Shown here: positions 5,437 through 30,900 of the stretch, piece after piece | How positions within the stretch are numbered: position 1 is the first letter of the stretch | How the letters are laid out: every line of letters starts with the position of its first letter | Origin: Albula goreensis | Taxonomy: Eukaryota > Chordata > Actinopteri > Albuliformes > Albulidae | Direction of reading: 5' to 3' | Length of the DNA stretch: 64,000 nt | NCBI GenBank assembly: GCA_022829145.1 | Contig: CM040755.1 | Location: 13,083,063-13,147,062, forward strand | Program-made: the position numbers and the translations under genes | The notes under the pieces: generated by a model | Database searches by the model: none | What the model was told of the DNA's origin: nothing | What the model saw: only the letters and a program-made list of their open reading frames with translations

Positions 5437-8400
5437 GTATGGTGAACACTCTTTTGACCCTTTCACACATTAGTCTCACATGCATATTGCGTTATGTGTT
5501 TAAAACAACCACTTCCCTCCTTGAATTGTTAAACAAAATTCCCTGGAAAAAAAACGCAAATTCAAACTTACAATATTAGATGATCCATCATCATAGTAAA
5601 GCAGCGAGAATAAATCATATGTACATACTGCCATATGTTATAATATCCTCTATTCTTCTTGTATAATTGCAAAGTTTCTGTTTTGAAGTTCATATTTCTT
5701 TTTTAGGTTAAGGTCTTAGTAGACCTCTGCAACAGCACGAAAGGGGCATGCCTAACAGGTATGCAATACAATATCCTCATTTACTTATTGCCTTCTCTCA
5801 CAAATAATAGTCATCTACAGCTCAATCCTCCTCATGACTGTATGGTGTAAACCTTGATTGTTCTGTCCCCTGATACAGGAGCTCCTGGACCTCCGGGTAA
5901 GAAATGAACAGAAATAATAATGATGATTATAATGAACAGAAGATACCTTACATACCTTACATTAGTCATCTTATACACTTGCACAATTACACAATGTGTG
6001 GACCAAAGTAAGTGCCATGAATTATCAAAGTAGGTGCTCCTCTCCATTACTGAGCCAGGCTAATGTAATGGCTTATGTTTACCGCAGGCTTGCCTGGCCA
6101 GGATGGGATGCCAGGGTACAATGGAACAGACGGAATTCCTGGGCCAAAGGGGGACCCTGGAGCTGATGGAAAGAGAGGGAAAAAAGGTACATCAGTCCAT
6201 TAGTTCCTATGAATCATAGATTATAAAAATGATGAAAATGGCAGCACATGTAGGAGATTCCCATTTGTGCCCTACTGGCCTTAATCAGAATGGGCCTCTT
6301 TTCATTTTGTGAACCCAATGTGTAGCCTTGTCATTGTGTTTGGATAATACACCACCATTTTAACTGACCTGTGATAAAATGCCGCAGCAGTGCTGAATGT
6401 TATTAAATGAGCTGCAGGCATGCAAAATTAACTAACCAAGCAGTGTGAGGGTATAACCTTCTGAAATACAATGCAGTTAGTCTGTTGAAATAGATGGTAT
6501 GGGTACATAATATTATCATATGTTAAAGTATTTTGCATATAGTCTTAGCCAGAACAGCTTACAATGAGAGAGGATATAAATGTGTTCCTTTGATTACTAT
6601 GATAAAAAGTGCCAGAGCTGGCAAGCAAAAAAAAGACCCAGACCAGCAAAAATATATGTAACAATAAATACCAGCCAGAACTGACAAATGCTGAGAAAAA
6701 AGTAATAAAAAAAAAAACACAAGAGTAGAAAAGTACCATAACCATCTTTGACTCAAAAGTCATCTCTGACATTGACTCTAAAAGAGACAAGAGTTCCCCC
6801 TACTGGCCCTCGACCCTAATTCAAGCAATAACTCAATGTACTAGAATGCATTGGATATGAAATGCTTTGTATCTTAGGCCCTCCTGGTGAGAAAGGAGAT
6901 CCAGGTGAAAAAGGAGAGAAGGGAGATCCTGGTTCACCAGGAGAGAAAGGAGAAACCTCCAATGATGTAATTTTTGAAGGTAAGAGCATCAACAAGTAAT
7001 TACTGTATATGCAAAATTTCCCAGCATGGATACATGTAGTACTATGTGGTTTACTTACCCATTTTGGTGATCAATTATCTCATGAATGATGTAGAAACGT
7101 AGGCTAATTCTAGGCTGGTGGAGGCTCATCCTAAATTGGGTGGATGTGCTGTTGTTCTTGAAAGGTCCACCTGGTCCGGTAGGTCCTCCGGGGTCTCCTG
7201 GACCTATTGGCCCGCCTGGACCTCCAGGGCCCCCAGGACCACCCAGGAACAGAAGCCACAGAGCGACCCTGCACTCAGCGCAGAGAATCATGGGTGAGTG
7301 TGGCTCTCCTTTACAATGTTTCATCCAGTGAGGGGATGGAAAGGAGGACAAATTAAATCACCTTTATTTAATACACTTCTTTTTTCTCCAGAACTTTGTT
7401 TTTTTCACAATTTGTAATGACCAATCACAACTAAAATACTGCCCCACATCCTATGTCAATACACATGAGTACACAGCAGCATGTATCCGTTCAAGCATGT
7501 ACTACACAGCCAGCCAGTATTTCAGTATACAGTCCATTAGTTTGTGGCAGGTTTGCCACTGGGCTAGAAGACTGCACTAATAAGTCAAGGCTATTTTACA
7601 TTGCTAACCACATGCCACCCAGTGGGGCTGCAGGTGATGTCTGATGCTGAAATATTCAGTAAAATTGAAAAAGCATGTAAGTTCATTATGAAGAATAACA
7701 TACTGAATATTCAGACTTTCAGGTGCAGTATATTTATATGGCTGCTCAAATTCTGTATCGTTTGATTCATAAGAGATGAATTTAATTTAGTTTTTCTTGT
7801 TTCAGGGGTGTCACACGCTGTCCCAAATGATGACACCTTATCTGGAGAAGAGGCTGGGCACATGAGACATCCAGTGTTTAAAAAAGGAGGTATGAATTAT
7901 TCAAGTAATTATTTGCTGCCATTGCTTTCATTTGTGGGGCTTGTAATTAATAAAAAAATCTCTGAAAAAGCTAAAAATTACATTATTTTACACCCAGATT
8001 GCATCATCAAATCCATAGCCAGTGCTACAAATGTTGTGAAAATGGAGAACACGTTTGGAACGTGGATGCAGGATGCGGCTACACAAAATGATGAACGCAT
8101 CTGGGTGGCTGAACATTTCTCAGGTCTGTCTGTGAAACAAATTTTTGTACAAATACTGAATCTTTGAAGTATGGCCAGGCTAAGGTCATTACCTGTTCTT
8201 AGGCTCATTCCATACGGTCATGAAGATGTGTGTACGTCATTCCTCTGCAGGCCGTGATATGAAGGAATATGAGAACATAGATGCTTTCCAGAATGGCAGC
8301 AGCAAATACATTGATGTCAGGAAATACTTTCAAGGATGTGGCCACATTGTGCACAATGGTTCCATCTACTATCACATGGCTGGGTATTCCACCATTGGCA

Positions 8401-8954
8401 AGTAAGAGTTGATCTTTTAAATGTTGCTTTCTTAAGACAAGTGAAACATCTTGCTTGCTCCTGATGTAATTTTCATTCCATGCAACAGGTTTCACCTCCA
8501 AAAAAGAACACTGCACACCCTGACCATTGAGAATGCGCTGTATCACAAGCTGAACTATCTCTTCAACAACTCCAAGACCTACTTCAAATTAGCCGTTGAT
8601 GAAAACGGACTGTGGCTCATTTTCGCTTCCAGCACAGATGAAAACATAGTGGTGGCTCATCTAGACGAGAAGACATTCTCGGTCACTTCGTACATCAACA
8701 CCACCTGTCCCAGGCTGAAAGCAGGGAACGCCTTCATAGCCTGTGGAGTGCTGTATGTTACGGACACCAAAGATGCCAAAGTCACATACGCCTTCGATTT
8801 ACTGAAAGGAAAACCCATCAGCGTGAGCTTCAACCTCAGACCAACGAGTGGTGTTGTAGCCATGCTGTCCTACAGTCCAATTAAGCGACATCTGTTTGCA
8901 TGGGACAGCAGGTATATAAAGATATACGATGTTCATTTCTTTTCTGATGAATGA
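5101..8954 (+). CDS. gldn: Gliomedin (gldn), 10 coding exons, 520 aa
   Basis: Gliomedin is a type II membrane glycoprotein of myelinating Schwann cells that binds NrCAM and neurofascin-186 and clusters sodium channels at nodes of Ranvier. The ten joined exons total 1563 nt in one frame. Seen: a short cytoplasmic N-terminus; a hydrophobic anchor at residues 14-35; a furin-type site RNKR at 81-84; a Met-rich stretch before residue 112; 22 Gly-X-Y triplets (130-195), a 7-residue break SNDVIFE, then 9 more triplets (203-229); and an olfactomedin domain from about 274 to 517 with motifs such as [11 protein letters not shown] and [20 protein letters not shown]. Human gliomedin is 551 aa, so this is full length. 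The ATG at 5101 is chosen because the frame upstream lacks another ATG and the anchor then sits at the usual distance. Intron boundaries are GT-AG. The next gene, dmxl2, is convergent. Confidence 0.96.
5404..5418 (+). repeat. gldn: Coding (ATG)5 trinucleotide repeat in gldn
   Basis: Five consecutive ATG codons encode a Met run just before the conserved TYSMVP motif. It is an in-frame microsatellite, so length changes would keep the frame. Confidence 0.9.
5707..5758 (+). CDS. gldn: gldn coding exon 2
   Basis: A TTTTTTTAG acceptor and GTATGC donor flank 52 nt encoding [17 protein letters not shown] plus the first base of a Gly codon. The DLCNST motif, with an N-glycosylation sequon, is a gliomedin landmark. 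Phase 0 to 1. Confidence 0.95.
5879..5896 (+). CDS. gldn: gldn coding exon 3, 18-nt microexon
   Basis: Only 18 nt, phase 1 on both sides, encoding APGPP with split Gly codons at both ends: exactly two collagen triplets. Acceptor ACAG and donor GTAAGA are good. Skipping it would keep the frame and the Gly register. Confidence 0.9.
6088..6186 (+). CDS. gldn: gldn coding exon 4, collagen-like
   Basis: 99 nt, phase 1 to 1: eleven Gly-X-Y triplets beginning [12 protein letters not shown]. Acceptor ACCGCAG, donor GTACAT. Confidence 0.95.
6878..6979 (+). CDS. gldn: gldn coding exon 5, collagen-like, with interruption
   Basis: 102 nt, phase 1 to 1. It encodes charged triplets [18 protein letters not shown] and ends the first collagen block with the non-triplet stretch SNDVIFE. 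Acceptor TCTTAG, donor GTAAGA. Confidence 0.95.
7165..7293 (+). CDS. gldn: gldn coding exon 6, second collagen block
   Basis: 129 nt, phase 1 to 1. Nine proline-rich triplets end in [10 protein letters not shown], followed by basic, non-collagenous residues. Acceptor GAAAG, donor GTGAGT. Confidence 0.95.
7806..7889 (+). CDS. gldn: gldn coding exon 7, linker
   Basis: 84 nt, phase 1 to 1. Encodes the acidic linker [18 protein letters not shown] and the stretch HPVFKKG before the olfactomedin domain. Acceptor TTTCAG, donor GTATGA. Confidence 0.93.
7998..8123 (+). CDS. gldn: gldn coding exon 8, olfactomedin domain start
   Basis: 126 nt, phase 1 to 1. Opens with CIIKSIA and contains [11 protein letters not shown] and [10 protein letters not shown], the typical beginning of an olfactomedin domain. 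Acceptor ACCCAG, donor GTCTGT. Confidence 0.95.
8251..8401 (+). CDS. gldn: gldn coding exon 9, olfactomedin domain
   Basis: 151 nt, phase 1 to 2. Encodes [15 protein letters not shown] and [14 protein letters not shown], with one N-glycosylation sequon in each half. Acceptor CTGCAG, donor GTAAGA. Confidence 0.95.
8489..8954 (+). CDS. gldn: gldn last coding exon 10, olfactomedin domain end
   Basis: 466 nt ending in TGA. Encodes [41 protein letters not shown] (with the Asp of the domain's usual metal site) and [19 protein letters not shown], then [11 protein letters not shown] at the C-terminus. Acceptor CAACAG. Confidence 0.97.
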
Positions 8955-14000: not shown

Positions 14001-17000
14001 ATTTTTCCATGTTTGTATTTATCTTCACTATTATTTCACAATAAGATTAAACTCATTGTAATAATATACTAAAATGTTGTGCAGCACTAAACACCCTTGG
14101 ATTTGCTTGCTTTGCCAATAATCTGCTTTTCAACACTTCACTCACTGTTTTATACAAATAGTGAGACACTGGTTAAAATACTTCCTTTTCAACAAACATT
14201 ACAAAAACTACTTTAAAATATTTGATAACAAATAAATATCATGAGATTTATTCAGCTAATGCACAGTCACTTCAGCTAGAGGGGAGAGGTTTATAGTCCA
14301 CACAACTGCCAGCTGGACAGTTCAACACAAATAACAACTGTCCTGAGCAAACCTCCAATAGTAATAATCAATTAAATCTGCAACAGTCCACCTTAATGCT
14401 CCTCCCTTGGTCTGGGTGTTGGATTTGAAAGAACCTCTGCTGGTCACAGTGTTGAGTTACAGCCTTCAGTGATCCTTGCCAAAGGGTATCTGGACTGTCT
14501 GCCATTTATCCTGAGATCAGGCCTTTTGATTCAGCACGACAGGGACACATACCACACTTCCTCCCATGCTGGTCTGTCCACTGCCGAGCCATGGCATGGA
14601 TGCCGAGGCTGGCATCTGTGGGGGGGCAAAGGGTGGGGCGCTGGCCTGGGCGATGTTGGTGTGAGAGGACCGATAGTCCTGATCGTCAGAGCTGTGAAGA
14701 GGTAGCATAACCACACAATATGCAGGTTAGCCCTAATGGCCTGTGAGCATTAGCACAAGAACACAGGCTAGCCCTAATGGCCTGTGAGCATTAGCACAAG
14801 AACACAGGCTAGCCCTAATGGCCACTGATCATTACCCCAGGAACACAGGCTAGCCCTAATGGCCACTGATCATTACCCGGGAACACAGGCTAGCCCTAAT
14901 GGCCACTGATCATTACCACAGGAACACAGGCTAGCCCTAATGGCCACTGATCATTACCACGGGAACACAGGCTAGCCCTAATGGCCTGTGATCATTAGCA
15001 CGGGATCACAGGCTAGCCCTAATGGCCTGTGATCATTAGCACAGGATCACAGGCTAGCCCTAATCACAGGCTAGCCCTAATGGCCTGTGATCATTAGCAC
15101 AGGATCACAGGCTAGCCCTAATGGCCTGTGATCATTAGCACAGGATCACAGGCTAGCCCTAATGGCCACTGATCATTACCACAGGAATGCGGGTTAAGTA
15201 ATGGTAAGTGATTACTTACACATGCAGGTTAAACACAAAAGTCAATGATAGCCCCCCTCCCCCAAAAGGTAATGGTACAGACCTGCGGGACTCCTTGTCA
15301 AACTCCTCTCCAATCCAGGTGTAGGGCTGGGCAGCCACAAGAGATGCCACATCTACCTCTTGCACATCATGAGTGGATGCCAGTACAATTTCATTAGTGT
15401 TGACCTGTTACAGGCAAAGACAGAGGGCTGAAAGCGTGGATCTCTTACCTACCCCAGACCAAGCTCTTGCATTTAAGACCATAACAGCAAAGCTGGTAAC
15501 AGTGTGAGTCAAGTGCAACGCATGTACCTTGTTAATGGCAAATGCCATTATGATGTCAGATTCTTTGTGAATAATTTTCGCTTTCCCTCCTGGATAGCCA
15601 AGATCCGCCTCCACCTGAAATAAAGCAACCACATTGTAACAACTGTCACCTTTGCTCTCATCTATTGCTGTAGTGAAACAGTTCGGTACAAAGCAAGCAC
15701 TCCATTGCCATGCATTGTAAAACCATGTGCCGCATCCCATTGGATGGTGTAGCCGTTTCCTTACGGTGACAGAATTCTTGCGCTCTTAAACTGAAAGCCA
15801 GCCTTGCTGTGCAGACACTTGCCAAAACTGCACTGAAATGAAATGCGAATGCTTTTCTTTTAGTGCTCCAGTTTGTTAATGGTGAGACAAAAAAGCACTA
15901 TTAGTAGTCCTGTTATTGGTAACGAGCATTGCTAACCTTATTGAATTACTGCCTATAAAGAACACATTTGTAAGGTGAACCTTGGATATTATGAGTGACA
16001 AAGAACAGGAAACCAGGGGGCTACTGGTGGCCGAGTCACGGCAGGAGGATACTACCTTGTTGGATTTGCGATCTCCTGCTACGCGGTCCACATGGTCTTC
16101 TAAAGACTACACAACACACCACACCGTCACAACACAAAACACATGCACAAACAACAGAAACATGAAATGAAAAAATGAAAAGGGTTTGCTGAGGCAGAGA
16201 ACTCAGACACAACGGGCTGCGGGCTTAACATTCTACAAATTTGCCACGTTGATACAGGTCACAAGCTGAAATCATTCTGGTATGTTAACTTATCTCTCGT
16301 CCTATAAGCTGCTCCTTTAACTTTCACTATGGCACTCTGTATTGGTGTACTATACTCTGAAATTTAAGGAAGGGAGCTAGCATTTTAACTCTAAGGTTGA
16401 GAGTTCAAATCCGCAGTGAGGAATTGCAGTTGTACCCTTCAGTAACCTATTTGTTTCAGTAACATATTCAGCTACAAATATGTGCACAGTATAATATACT
16501 TGGAATATTTTGTGTAATTCATGATAGGGGCCCACTGTGTAAATCCAATAAAAACGTAATAATGAACATGACACACAGGAGCTGTGGGAGTATTCTGTGT
16601 GGGACTTGTTCTTTGAAGCATAAGTAATACTGCCCCAACAGCAGGTAATGGATTGCAATGATATAAAGTGCGCAGTAGACACAAATCAGGATTAACCTGG
16701 GGTAAGTTAAAAATAACTCCCAAAACAAAAATCTTGCATTGTAGATAATGCTATTGAGGAGATAGGGTCTGAAGTTATTTCAATTTCTGAAATGCACACA
16801 ACTACAAATAAATCACATCTACGCAGGGTTTATGCATGAAGTATCCTTCAGTTTTGCTCATCTTTGTAGGTATGACTGAACTTGCCTGTTTTGGTCTGGA
16901 TGATTAGAGTGTATGATGCACTTAGATCTGGTCTGAACTGGGTAAGGTTTTGTTCTTGAATGAAATATGTACTGTTTTTATGCCTCAGGCCTCTATTGAA

Positions 17001-27900: not shown

Positions 27901-30900
27901 TGTTGACTGTAGTCACGAATAATAAAACGGACATGTGCTATTCAGTGTGATTGGATCCATTCATTACAACTTTTAATGAGTGAGAAGAGTGATTGAGTAC
28001 CTGAACAGTCCCCAGAGAACAGCTTTTTTCTTCATTGCCAGGTAGAAGAGAGCAGCATCTAATGGGTCGTTGTTCCTTTGAAAGGCAGCTTTCCCAACCT
28101 ACAGCGGAGCAGTGAGAGTTGTCGGTATAACGTATGAGAAAGAGAGAGCCCACCATGCTACAATTCAGCTTGTTTTCAGTCAGCAGTTCTGTGTCGTGTG
28201 TTTGGCAGGCCATCAACAGTGAGCTGGAGGGAATAAACGCATCGATCTTGTGGCGGACGGCTCATAAAAGAGTTTATGGCATGCTGTGCTGTGCGTTTGT
28301 AGATGTGGAGCGAGCGTGGGTTGTGAGAGAGCACACCTTCTCCATCATCCTGCGCAGCGTGTTAATGTTGCGCACCCACCAGCCCACTCCAAGCGCCCGG
28401 AGCTCGGACCACTGGGGGTCACCCCTCTGCATGGCCGGGATCATGTTCAGAAGCTCCTCCTCTGCCTCCGAGTGGAAGGCCCAGGCAAAGTGACACGTGG
28501 ACAGGCCTGGGGGCAAAAGGCACATGAGCAATGAGCATACACACACACACACACGCACACACACGCACACACTTATGCACACACACGCACACACACGCAC
28601 ACACTTATGCACACACACGCACAAATATGAACACATAACAAACCACTAAATACATATTAGACACAAAAAACAAGCATCTCAAACATCGTACAGAGACAGA
28701 CACAAACATATCCAGAATATTCTGACATACAGCACAAGCGCAGGACATATACATGCACTCACTCACACATGCATTCACACATGCATTCTCACGCACGCAC
28801 GCATGCACGTGCACACACACAGATGGTGCTTCACCATTAGGTCAGACATGTTTATAAAAAACCTTGAGCAGTTTAACAAATTAACTTCACTGAATTACAC
28901 CATGAGCTGCAGAGATGTTAATAATGGAGTGATATAAAGTATGTATAAGGACATGCCACTAGAAACTAGTATGACTGATTGAATTAGCGCTGTCCTCTTC
29001 ATGGCACACTAAATATATTATAAATCTCTGTCCTTTCCAGCTTGCTGAGTCACAGAGCAGCGCATACCTTGGTGCAGTAGCTGCATCCTGTACAGCGGGG
29101 GCAGGGAGGTGAGCAGGCAGGTGTGCAAGCGCATGGCCAGCAAGTACCTCAGGCCACACTCATCCAGCGCTTCACCCCCTGGACACAAACACACCGAGGA
29201 GAAACCAGGTCATGGAGAGGAGACAAGGACAGTCTGACTACTACCTTTGGTGATATAACCCCCTTCACACACACACACAGACAGACACACACACGTGCCC
29301 TGGCTGAGTCTCTCCCCTTGGATGTTTGCTCTATTTCAGCTGTCACGTGCACCCTCCCCCACCCCTTCCACCCACAGCCCCCTGGAGGCCTGTCTGGCCC
29401 TGATTAGAGTAGGGACAGGTCTGATCTGAGTTTTGTCTTCCAGGCAGACTGCAGCATCCAAAGCCAACAAACACTGTGGTCACAGTTCACGGTTATGATC
29501 AATAATGTCTTCCCTTGCCAGGTCTCACAAGATGAATGTACGTTTGAGCTGGAGCAGCACATGATGTGACTTGTGTGTCAAGGCAATTGTGGTCATCTTG
29601 CCATAATTAAATTAATTTACAAAAACTCACCAGCTTTGTATGCTAGGACATTGATTCAATTTAATTTATACCTCACTGATGGTGAATAACATCTTGCCTT
29701 AATACAGAAGCTAAATGCAAGATATACACTGCTGTGGCTATGTGACCCATTCTAAACTCAAATCAATGTATTAAAAGCCTGGAGCACTTTGCCAAGTTCG
29801 TTCTACATTTCTTATCACACGATTAAATAAATCAAATTTATACTGCAGACGACAAGTCAAAAGAGGCTTTGTGTCCTTGACCAAGTAGTTACGAGTGGCT
29901 ATTGCGCTGAATTACCTTAATGGTACAATTCGTTTGTCAGTAATGGGAGTTCACTTGACATTAGGTGAGAATCCTACCTAAAAAAAAAAATCCTGTTATG
30001 TCTTTCCATAACTACTATTCTTCTTTCTTTGGTTTTGCATTCACCCTTTCATAAAACCTATAGAGATTCTACAGTCAACTGCCTCCTCTTCTTAGCAAAA
30101 GACCAAGACTGCTAATAACACTAGAAGACTGTCCGAAGCAGGTCCTTCACTCACCTGTGTACTGTTTGTCTGAGCCAGAGCTGACCTCTGCGCTGGTGGT
30201 GGCCACGGTGTCGGCCAAAGCTACCAGGAACATCTGCTCCAGGCGTGTGAGGCCGGGCAGGCTGGAGTGCATCAGATGGCTGGAGAGCACCTGGGCATGC
30301 TCTGGCCCGAAGTAGGTGGGGCCGTACTGCGACAGGTTGATGACACGTGACTTCTTCTCCTTCTTCTCAGCGGCAAAGCTGACAAAGTCATCAGTGGTGA
30401 CTGTGGGGACTTGGAAAAGGTCAGCGTACTGGTCCTCAGCAGACTTCTGAGCCTCACCCTCAGGGCCCTTGGCCCCCTTGGCAGCCTCCTCCCCGGCCTT
30501 GTAGGAGGTATCCAGGTCAGCAGACAGCAGGGCGTACAGGGGCAGCGGGGGGATGGAGTTGATCTCCGTGTAGTCGCGGCCGCCGTCCCGCCCAGCCAGG
30601 ATGGTGTCCTTGGCTGTGCTGCCGCTGACACTGATGGTCCGAGACAGGTGGCGCCTGGCTCCCCCCTCTCCTGCCTCCACGTCCCTCACCACTGCCACCT
30701 CCCCGGCGATGCACTTGACCAGGTGCGACAGGATGGCTTTGGCCCGCCGCACCTTCCCCAGGTCCATGAGCTCCAGCAGCTGGGTGGGGTGGTATTGGGG
30801 CAGAGTGGGCGAGAGAGAGTGTGCGGCCTCGAACAGACCCCCATCCTGGAGGACAGCAGGTGCCCGGAAGACATCCTCCATGGCTGTGTTCCCCTCAAAG

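Follow-up and report, generated by a model that had tools for sequence, protein, structure and literature searches.

How did a minisatellite come to occupy most of an intron, and does it do anything there? The question is raised by a 64,000-nucleotide stretch of the Albula goreensis genome (GenBank assembly GCA_022829145.1, contig CM040755.1, positions 13,083,063 to 13,147,062; this whole stretch is called the window), in which a tandem array of 41-bp units, some of them able to fold into perfect hairpins, lies in an intron of a minus-strand gene that is plausibly dmxl2. The analysis covers one haplotype of one species, and from it we consider it probable that the array is an ordinary intronic minisatellite which arose locally out of the 3' part of its intron and is largely neutral. 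A function beyond lodging a likely branch point in its edge unit is not indicated.

Units, blocks and flanks of the array

The host intron (14692-15282, minus strand) measures 591 bp and runs from the donor CCGCAG/GTCTGT at 15282 to the acceptor CTTCACAG at 14692, with GT..AG boundaries; the exons joined across it stay open in frame (...EFDKESR/SSDDQDYRSS...). Within this intron, Tandem Repeats Finder and the list of units place a 41-bp tandem array, in its strict extent, at 14723-15187, where it makes up 465 of the 591 bp and is separated from the acceptor-side exon by 31 intron bases (14692-14722). No other array of the 64-kb window combines a unit longer than 30 bp with more than 3 copies, and the units of this one match at 94-96% (period 41). 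The 9-bp core AGCCCTAAT occurs 12 times, in steps of 41, 41, 41, 40, 41, 41, 41, 41, 17, 41 and 41, corresponding to nine units of 41 nt, one of 40, one truncated unit of 17 nt and one edge unit, and no exact copy of this core was found outside the array on either strand within the window. Minisatellites consist of head-to-tail units of roughly 10-100 bp in many copies, and with its period of 41, its 94-96% matches, its 12 core copies and its blocks of variant repeats from local duplication the array is one of them. The 41-bp tandem array with one 17-nt truncated unit that had been proposed from the bare sequence (the original prediction) was thus borne out by Tandem Repeats Finder and by splitting at the core; the intron size given there was exact as well, and its approximate figures of 464 bp for the array and 32 bp for the distance to the acceptor are replaced by the measured 465 bp and 31 bases.

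The units fall into three types, A, B and C, where two blockwise variants had been predicted. Along the plus strand, two C-type units (GGCCTGTGAGC ... AGAACACAGG, 14729-14810) are followed by four B-type units (GGCCACTGATC ... GGAACACAGG, 14811-14973, one of them of 40 bp), two A-type units (14974-15055), the 17-nt truncated unit (15056-15072), two further A-type units (15073-15154) and a B-type edge unit (15155-15187) that runs into the donor-side flank, giving the order C C B B B B A A, truncated, A A, B (edge). Adjacent units resemble each other beyond what is seen in shuffled order (mean adjacent distance 1.78 vs 3.68, p 0.003), in a test on the 10 full units that omitted the truncated and edge units and so counted the truncated unit's two neighbours as adjacent. 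Duplications of a 99-bp block (98%) and of a 58-bp block (100%) overlap each other as rows of this one array. The 17-nt unit equals an A unit minus 24 bp, with 2-bp microhomology at the break and three equivalent break positions, and what the deletion took away is a complete stem arm together with the loop, plus 1-3 bases from the second arm. The unit blocks, the 99-bp and 58-bp duplications and the 24-bp microhomology deletion together support that copies were gained and lost in the past. This part of the predicted copy turnover stands; that the turnover is active and that individuals would differ in array length, as was also claimed, would be extrapolations from one haplotype.

Traces of older units may extend beyond the strict array. 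By local and cyclic alignment, a possible decayed partial unit lies on the acceptor side (14704-14722) and a possible decayed unit on the donor side (15188-15231). The 31-nt acceptor flank (14692-14722) aligns locally to the C unit with a score of 21, which 8 of 500 shuffles equalled, compared with 67/500 and 69/500 for A and B. For the 95-nt donor flank (15188-15282) the scores are 22 to A (4/500 shuffles), 26 to B (5/500) and 18 to C (88/500), and as a further control for this flank, random 95-mers of the window reached at least 26 against their best unit in 16 of 991 cases. Cyclic alignment, run with no control, reaches 14704 (C) or 14706 (A, B) at one end and 15231 (A, C) or 15249 (B) at the other. 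Moreover, the 10-mer ATGCAGGTTA is found both in the donor-side flank and at the acceptor-side edge of the array, and its acceptor-side copy spans the position at which the array starts. With moderate strength, these observations suggest that the 3' segment of the intron seeded the array and that both flanks are possibly decayed old units.

Hairpins of the A units

Perfect inverted repeats of at least 7 bp, with loops of 3-25 nt, were catalogued across the intron. Four perfect hairpins with a 10-bp stem and a 10-nt loop are found, at 14984-15013, 15025-15054, 15083-15112 and 15124-15153. They are confined to the four A units, so that 4 of the 11 scored units (the 17-nt unit was not scored) carry the perfect stem. 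The original prediction of an exact 10-bp stem with a 10-nt loop therefore stands at these four sites, with the amendment that in the core register each hairpin is contained within a single unit and not formed by a unit with its neighbour; a rival 10-bp register with a loop of 11 does pair neighbouring A units, at two places (15004-15034 and 15103-15133). Scoring the same stem throughout the array gave 10 of 10 pairs in the four A units, 8 of 10 in the two C units, 7 of 10 in the four B units and 4 of 10 in the edge unit, the last scored with flank bases to 15195. A ladder of hairpins along the whole array was accordingly rejected as overstated.

To judge how unusual the A hairpin is, units were compared with their shuffles, local hairpins being limited to within 41 nt. 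A local hairpin of 10 bp arose in 8 of 5000 shuffled A units with dinucleotides kept and in 3 of 5000 with single bases kept, and in dinucleotide-kept shuffles a local hairpin as long as that of C (7 bp) or of B (5 bp) arose in 301 and 1753 of 5000, respectively. When pairing between copies was allowed, shuffles of A gave a 10-bp pairing in 191 of 2000 cases (dinucleotides kept) and 121 of 2000 (single bases). Folding of four-copy RNA was controlled with arrays of shuffled units, of which 2/300 (A), 131/300 (B) and 23/300 (C) folded as well on the plus strand, and 20/300 (A, borderline), 65/300 (B) and 152/300 (C) on the transcribed minus strand. The A hairpin thus exists, and a single unit would seldom form one by chance, as the local-hairpin shuffles show (8/5000); the transcribed strand of the array has no unusual degree of structure, as the minus-strand folds of shuffled units show. 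Plain shuffles gave stronger values (intron RNA, z -2.74, 1/100 as good; plus-strand array DNA, z -5.63, 0/100), which we discounted, since plain shuffling breaks up the tandem order; the control with shuffled units gives a weaker result.

Between 14400 and 15600 no Rfam family was matched at its gathering score; three matches with E up to 1 all fell under the cut-off, the one with the lowest E being mir-584 (23.6 bits vs 80). In the donor-side flank, an inverted repeat with arms of 8 bp (TAAGTAAT/ATTACTTA, 15195-15218) encloses a loop of 8 nt.

How the perfect stem may have arisen is suggested by the graded arms of the three unit types. That a template switch is able to generate hairpin stems or to correct them is described in the available part of PMC8794818. 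As in the quasipalindromes described there, the imperfect arms of B and C and the perfect arms of A fit a correction of one arm from the other; unlike those described in that part of the source, the stem here lies within a minisatellite and would have been spread by unit duplication. With 7, 8 and 10 of 10 stem pairs, the three unit types illustrate in readable form how repeats able to form hairpins may come about.

Splicing signals, origin and rival explanations

Branch points follow the rule YTNAY. On the minus strand the last upstream AG stands at -43, and from there to the acceptor a scan found two YTNAY matches: TTCAC at -4, rejected as a branch point for being too close to the acceptor, and CTAAC at -36. 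CTAAC (14726-14730, with its A at window position 14727) lies within the array edge and, as the sole usable YTNAY in the AG-free 3' stretch, is the likely candidate branch point. A candidate branch point inside the array edge was absent from the original prediction. Where the edge unit has CTAAC the interior units read CTAGC; CTAAT stands elsewhere in the A and C units, six times in the array, and the two C units also have CTCAC.

An influence of array length on splicing was explored by a folding estimate, run with no control, in which paired bases lay no more than 150 nt apart. For the branch point, the predicted unpaired probability averaged 0.28, 0.08, 0.15, 0.06, 0.06 and 0.11 with 0, 2, 4, 6, 8 and 10 array segments removed, so that its accessibility peaks with the full array and has no steady trend with copy number. 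In the full array the donor site is predicted to be partly paired (0.38 unpaired) and the pyrimidine tract open (0.74). This estimate does not support length-dependent splicing, which the original prediction had put forward as a possibility.

In the sequence of events we favour, slippage or unequal exchange would have multiplied the intron's 3' segment, including the segment with the branch point, and older sequence would have been left at the array edges as decayed units. A template switch between imperfect arms, as in quasipalindrome correction, may then have made the A stem perfect, or plain mutation may have done so; the stem would later have been copied along with its block. With the edge CTAAC as putative branch point, the array would sit beside a splicing signal without regulating splicing; if the edge unit holds a working branch point, copy-number change occurs directly beside an essential splicing signal.

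Several observations weigh against this account. Shuffled A units seldom form a local 10-bp hairpin (8/5000) and few arrays of shuffled units fold as well as the plus-strand RNA of A (2/300), and because of these two results selection on structure retains a small share of the probability. The branch point is predicted to be mostly paired (0.28 unpaired), which does not favour its use. The likeness of the flanks to units is modest: the donor-side score is equalled by 16 of 991 random window stretches, and the acceptor flank fits one of the three unit types tried, with a shuffle control only. In addition, the direction of change among A, B and C is not established, and growth in place is inferred from a single haplotype of one species.

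The best surviving alternative, which we still regard as unlikely, is that the array modulates splicing, with UAGGG (hnRNP A1-like) sites, CTAAT motifs and hairpins shortening the effective intron or competing for factors, and with copy number tuning the downstream exon. UAGGG is present in all 12 core copies, and 12 of the 33 minus-strand TAGGG of the 64-kb window lie in this intron, where 0.3 would be expected by length; as one motif multiplied by unit copying, however, they count as one event. The motif is near those reported for hnRNP A1 in the available part of PMC4932749, namely UAGGGA/U by systematic evolution of ligands by exponential enrichment (SELEX) and UAGG by individual-nucleotide cross-linking and immunoprecipitation (iCLIP), but its sixth base here is C and not the A/U of that SELEX motif. 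Variable columns are clustered among the units, and a 21-column invariant run includes the UAGGG core, yet this invariance is weak (permutation p 0.02, 0.05 and 0.11 for 8, 7 and 6 independent events), in a test on the 10 full units that left out the edge units, which are variable inside the run. The six CTAAT motifs have a predicted mean unpaired probability of 0.68-0.87 over the motif; their would-be branch A, however, is 0.31-0.51 unpaired in the four A units and 0.83-0.96 in the two C units, and the lack of a steady copy-number trend in branch-point accessibility speaks against the idea as well. A bolder version, to which we give very little credence, would have the 3' segment with the branch point seed the array, the A and C copies keep CTAAT as a decoy near UAGGG (in A, in the loop of the perfect hairpin), and array length tune the use of the 3' splice site in a synaptic gene, DMXL2 being synaptic.

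It is rather improbable that the array, with further copies elsewhere in the genome, is part of a transposable element carrying tandem repeats inside it (e.g. of Helitron type), or came in with one. Minisatellites inside elements of this sort are known, and the 8-bp inverted repeat in the donor-side flank would suit such an origin. Against it, exact copies of the core AGCCCTAAT are confined, within the window, to the array, and the flanks look closer to decayed units than to element ends. Finally, that selection preserves the stem for its structure in DNA or RNA is highly improbable, for although the perfect 10-bp stem occurs in four A units and is matched by few shuffled units (8/5000) or plus-strand folds (2/300), the other seven scored units persist in the array with 2 to 6 mismatched pairs, and the stem differences of B and C from A give mismatches and not alternative pairs, so that no compensatory change is seen.

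Some known systems come close to this array. Human variable number tandem repeats that include a splice signal are reportedly known from factor VII intron 7 (a 37-bp repeat) and from CBS (a 31-bp repeat), the splice-site region itself being repeated. Like these, the array would include an intron splicing signal, in its case a candidate at its edge; unlike in these, the candidate branch point CTAAC is present in the edge unit only, the interior units having CTAGC. In Sparus aurata, alleles of myostatin-2 intron 1 differ in copies of a repeated block, and the available part of that report (PMC3045353) finds the markers not clearly associated with growth rate. Ours is likewise a repeated block inside a fish intron; compared with what that part of PMC3045353 describes, it differs in its 41-bp unit, its about 11 copies and its place beside the 3' splice site, and it is known here from one haplotype. 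The array looks like a further example of an already known kind, the intronic minisatellite without demonstrated function. Among the open-licence PMC papers listed, judged by titles and abstract starts, none dealt with this array, and none was found for DMXL2 together with a minisatellite. A 15-mer of the unit matched 9 stretches of viral contigs, with one match each, which we take as chance, and a 22-letter unit pattern (two N), searched for exact matches only, gave none in bacterial and archaeal genome contigs.

Host gene and neighbouring features

A frame at 11111-11404 matches WD40 (E 6e-10, 8 nearby frames scanned) and one at 30150-31844 matches Rav1p_C (E 2.9e-12, 8 larger frames scanned), domains that point to a host gene of the DMXL/rabconnectin-3 family. 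On the plus strand, an exon with an olfactomedin domain (PF02191, E 1.6e-45) is found at 8445-8951 in a neighbouring gene, and tandem repeats at 6882-6953 are read as collagen-like; together they indicate that this neighbour is probably gliomedin. DMXL2 and GLDN (gliomedin) are neighbouring genes. The name dmxl2, already given in the original prediction, is plausible because of the Rav1p_C and WD40 domains and the neighbouring olfactomedin-domain exon that fits gliomedin.

Compared with solved structures, the exon peptide gave nothing convincing (2 matches, best E 0.31), and no solved chain matched the Rav1p_C region at E 0.1. Against viral contigs the exon peptide had 19 pattern matches, 0 of which were confirmed as a relative. 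Elsewhere in the window, a CA-rich compound array at 28546-28623 has a period of 32 bp, with 100% matches over 2.4 copies.
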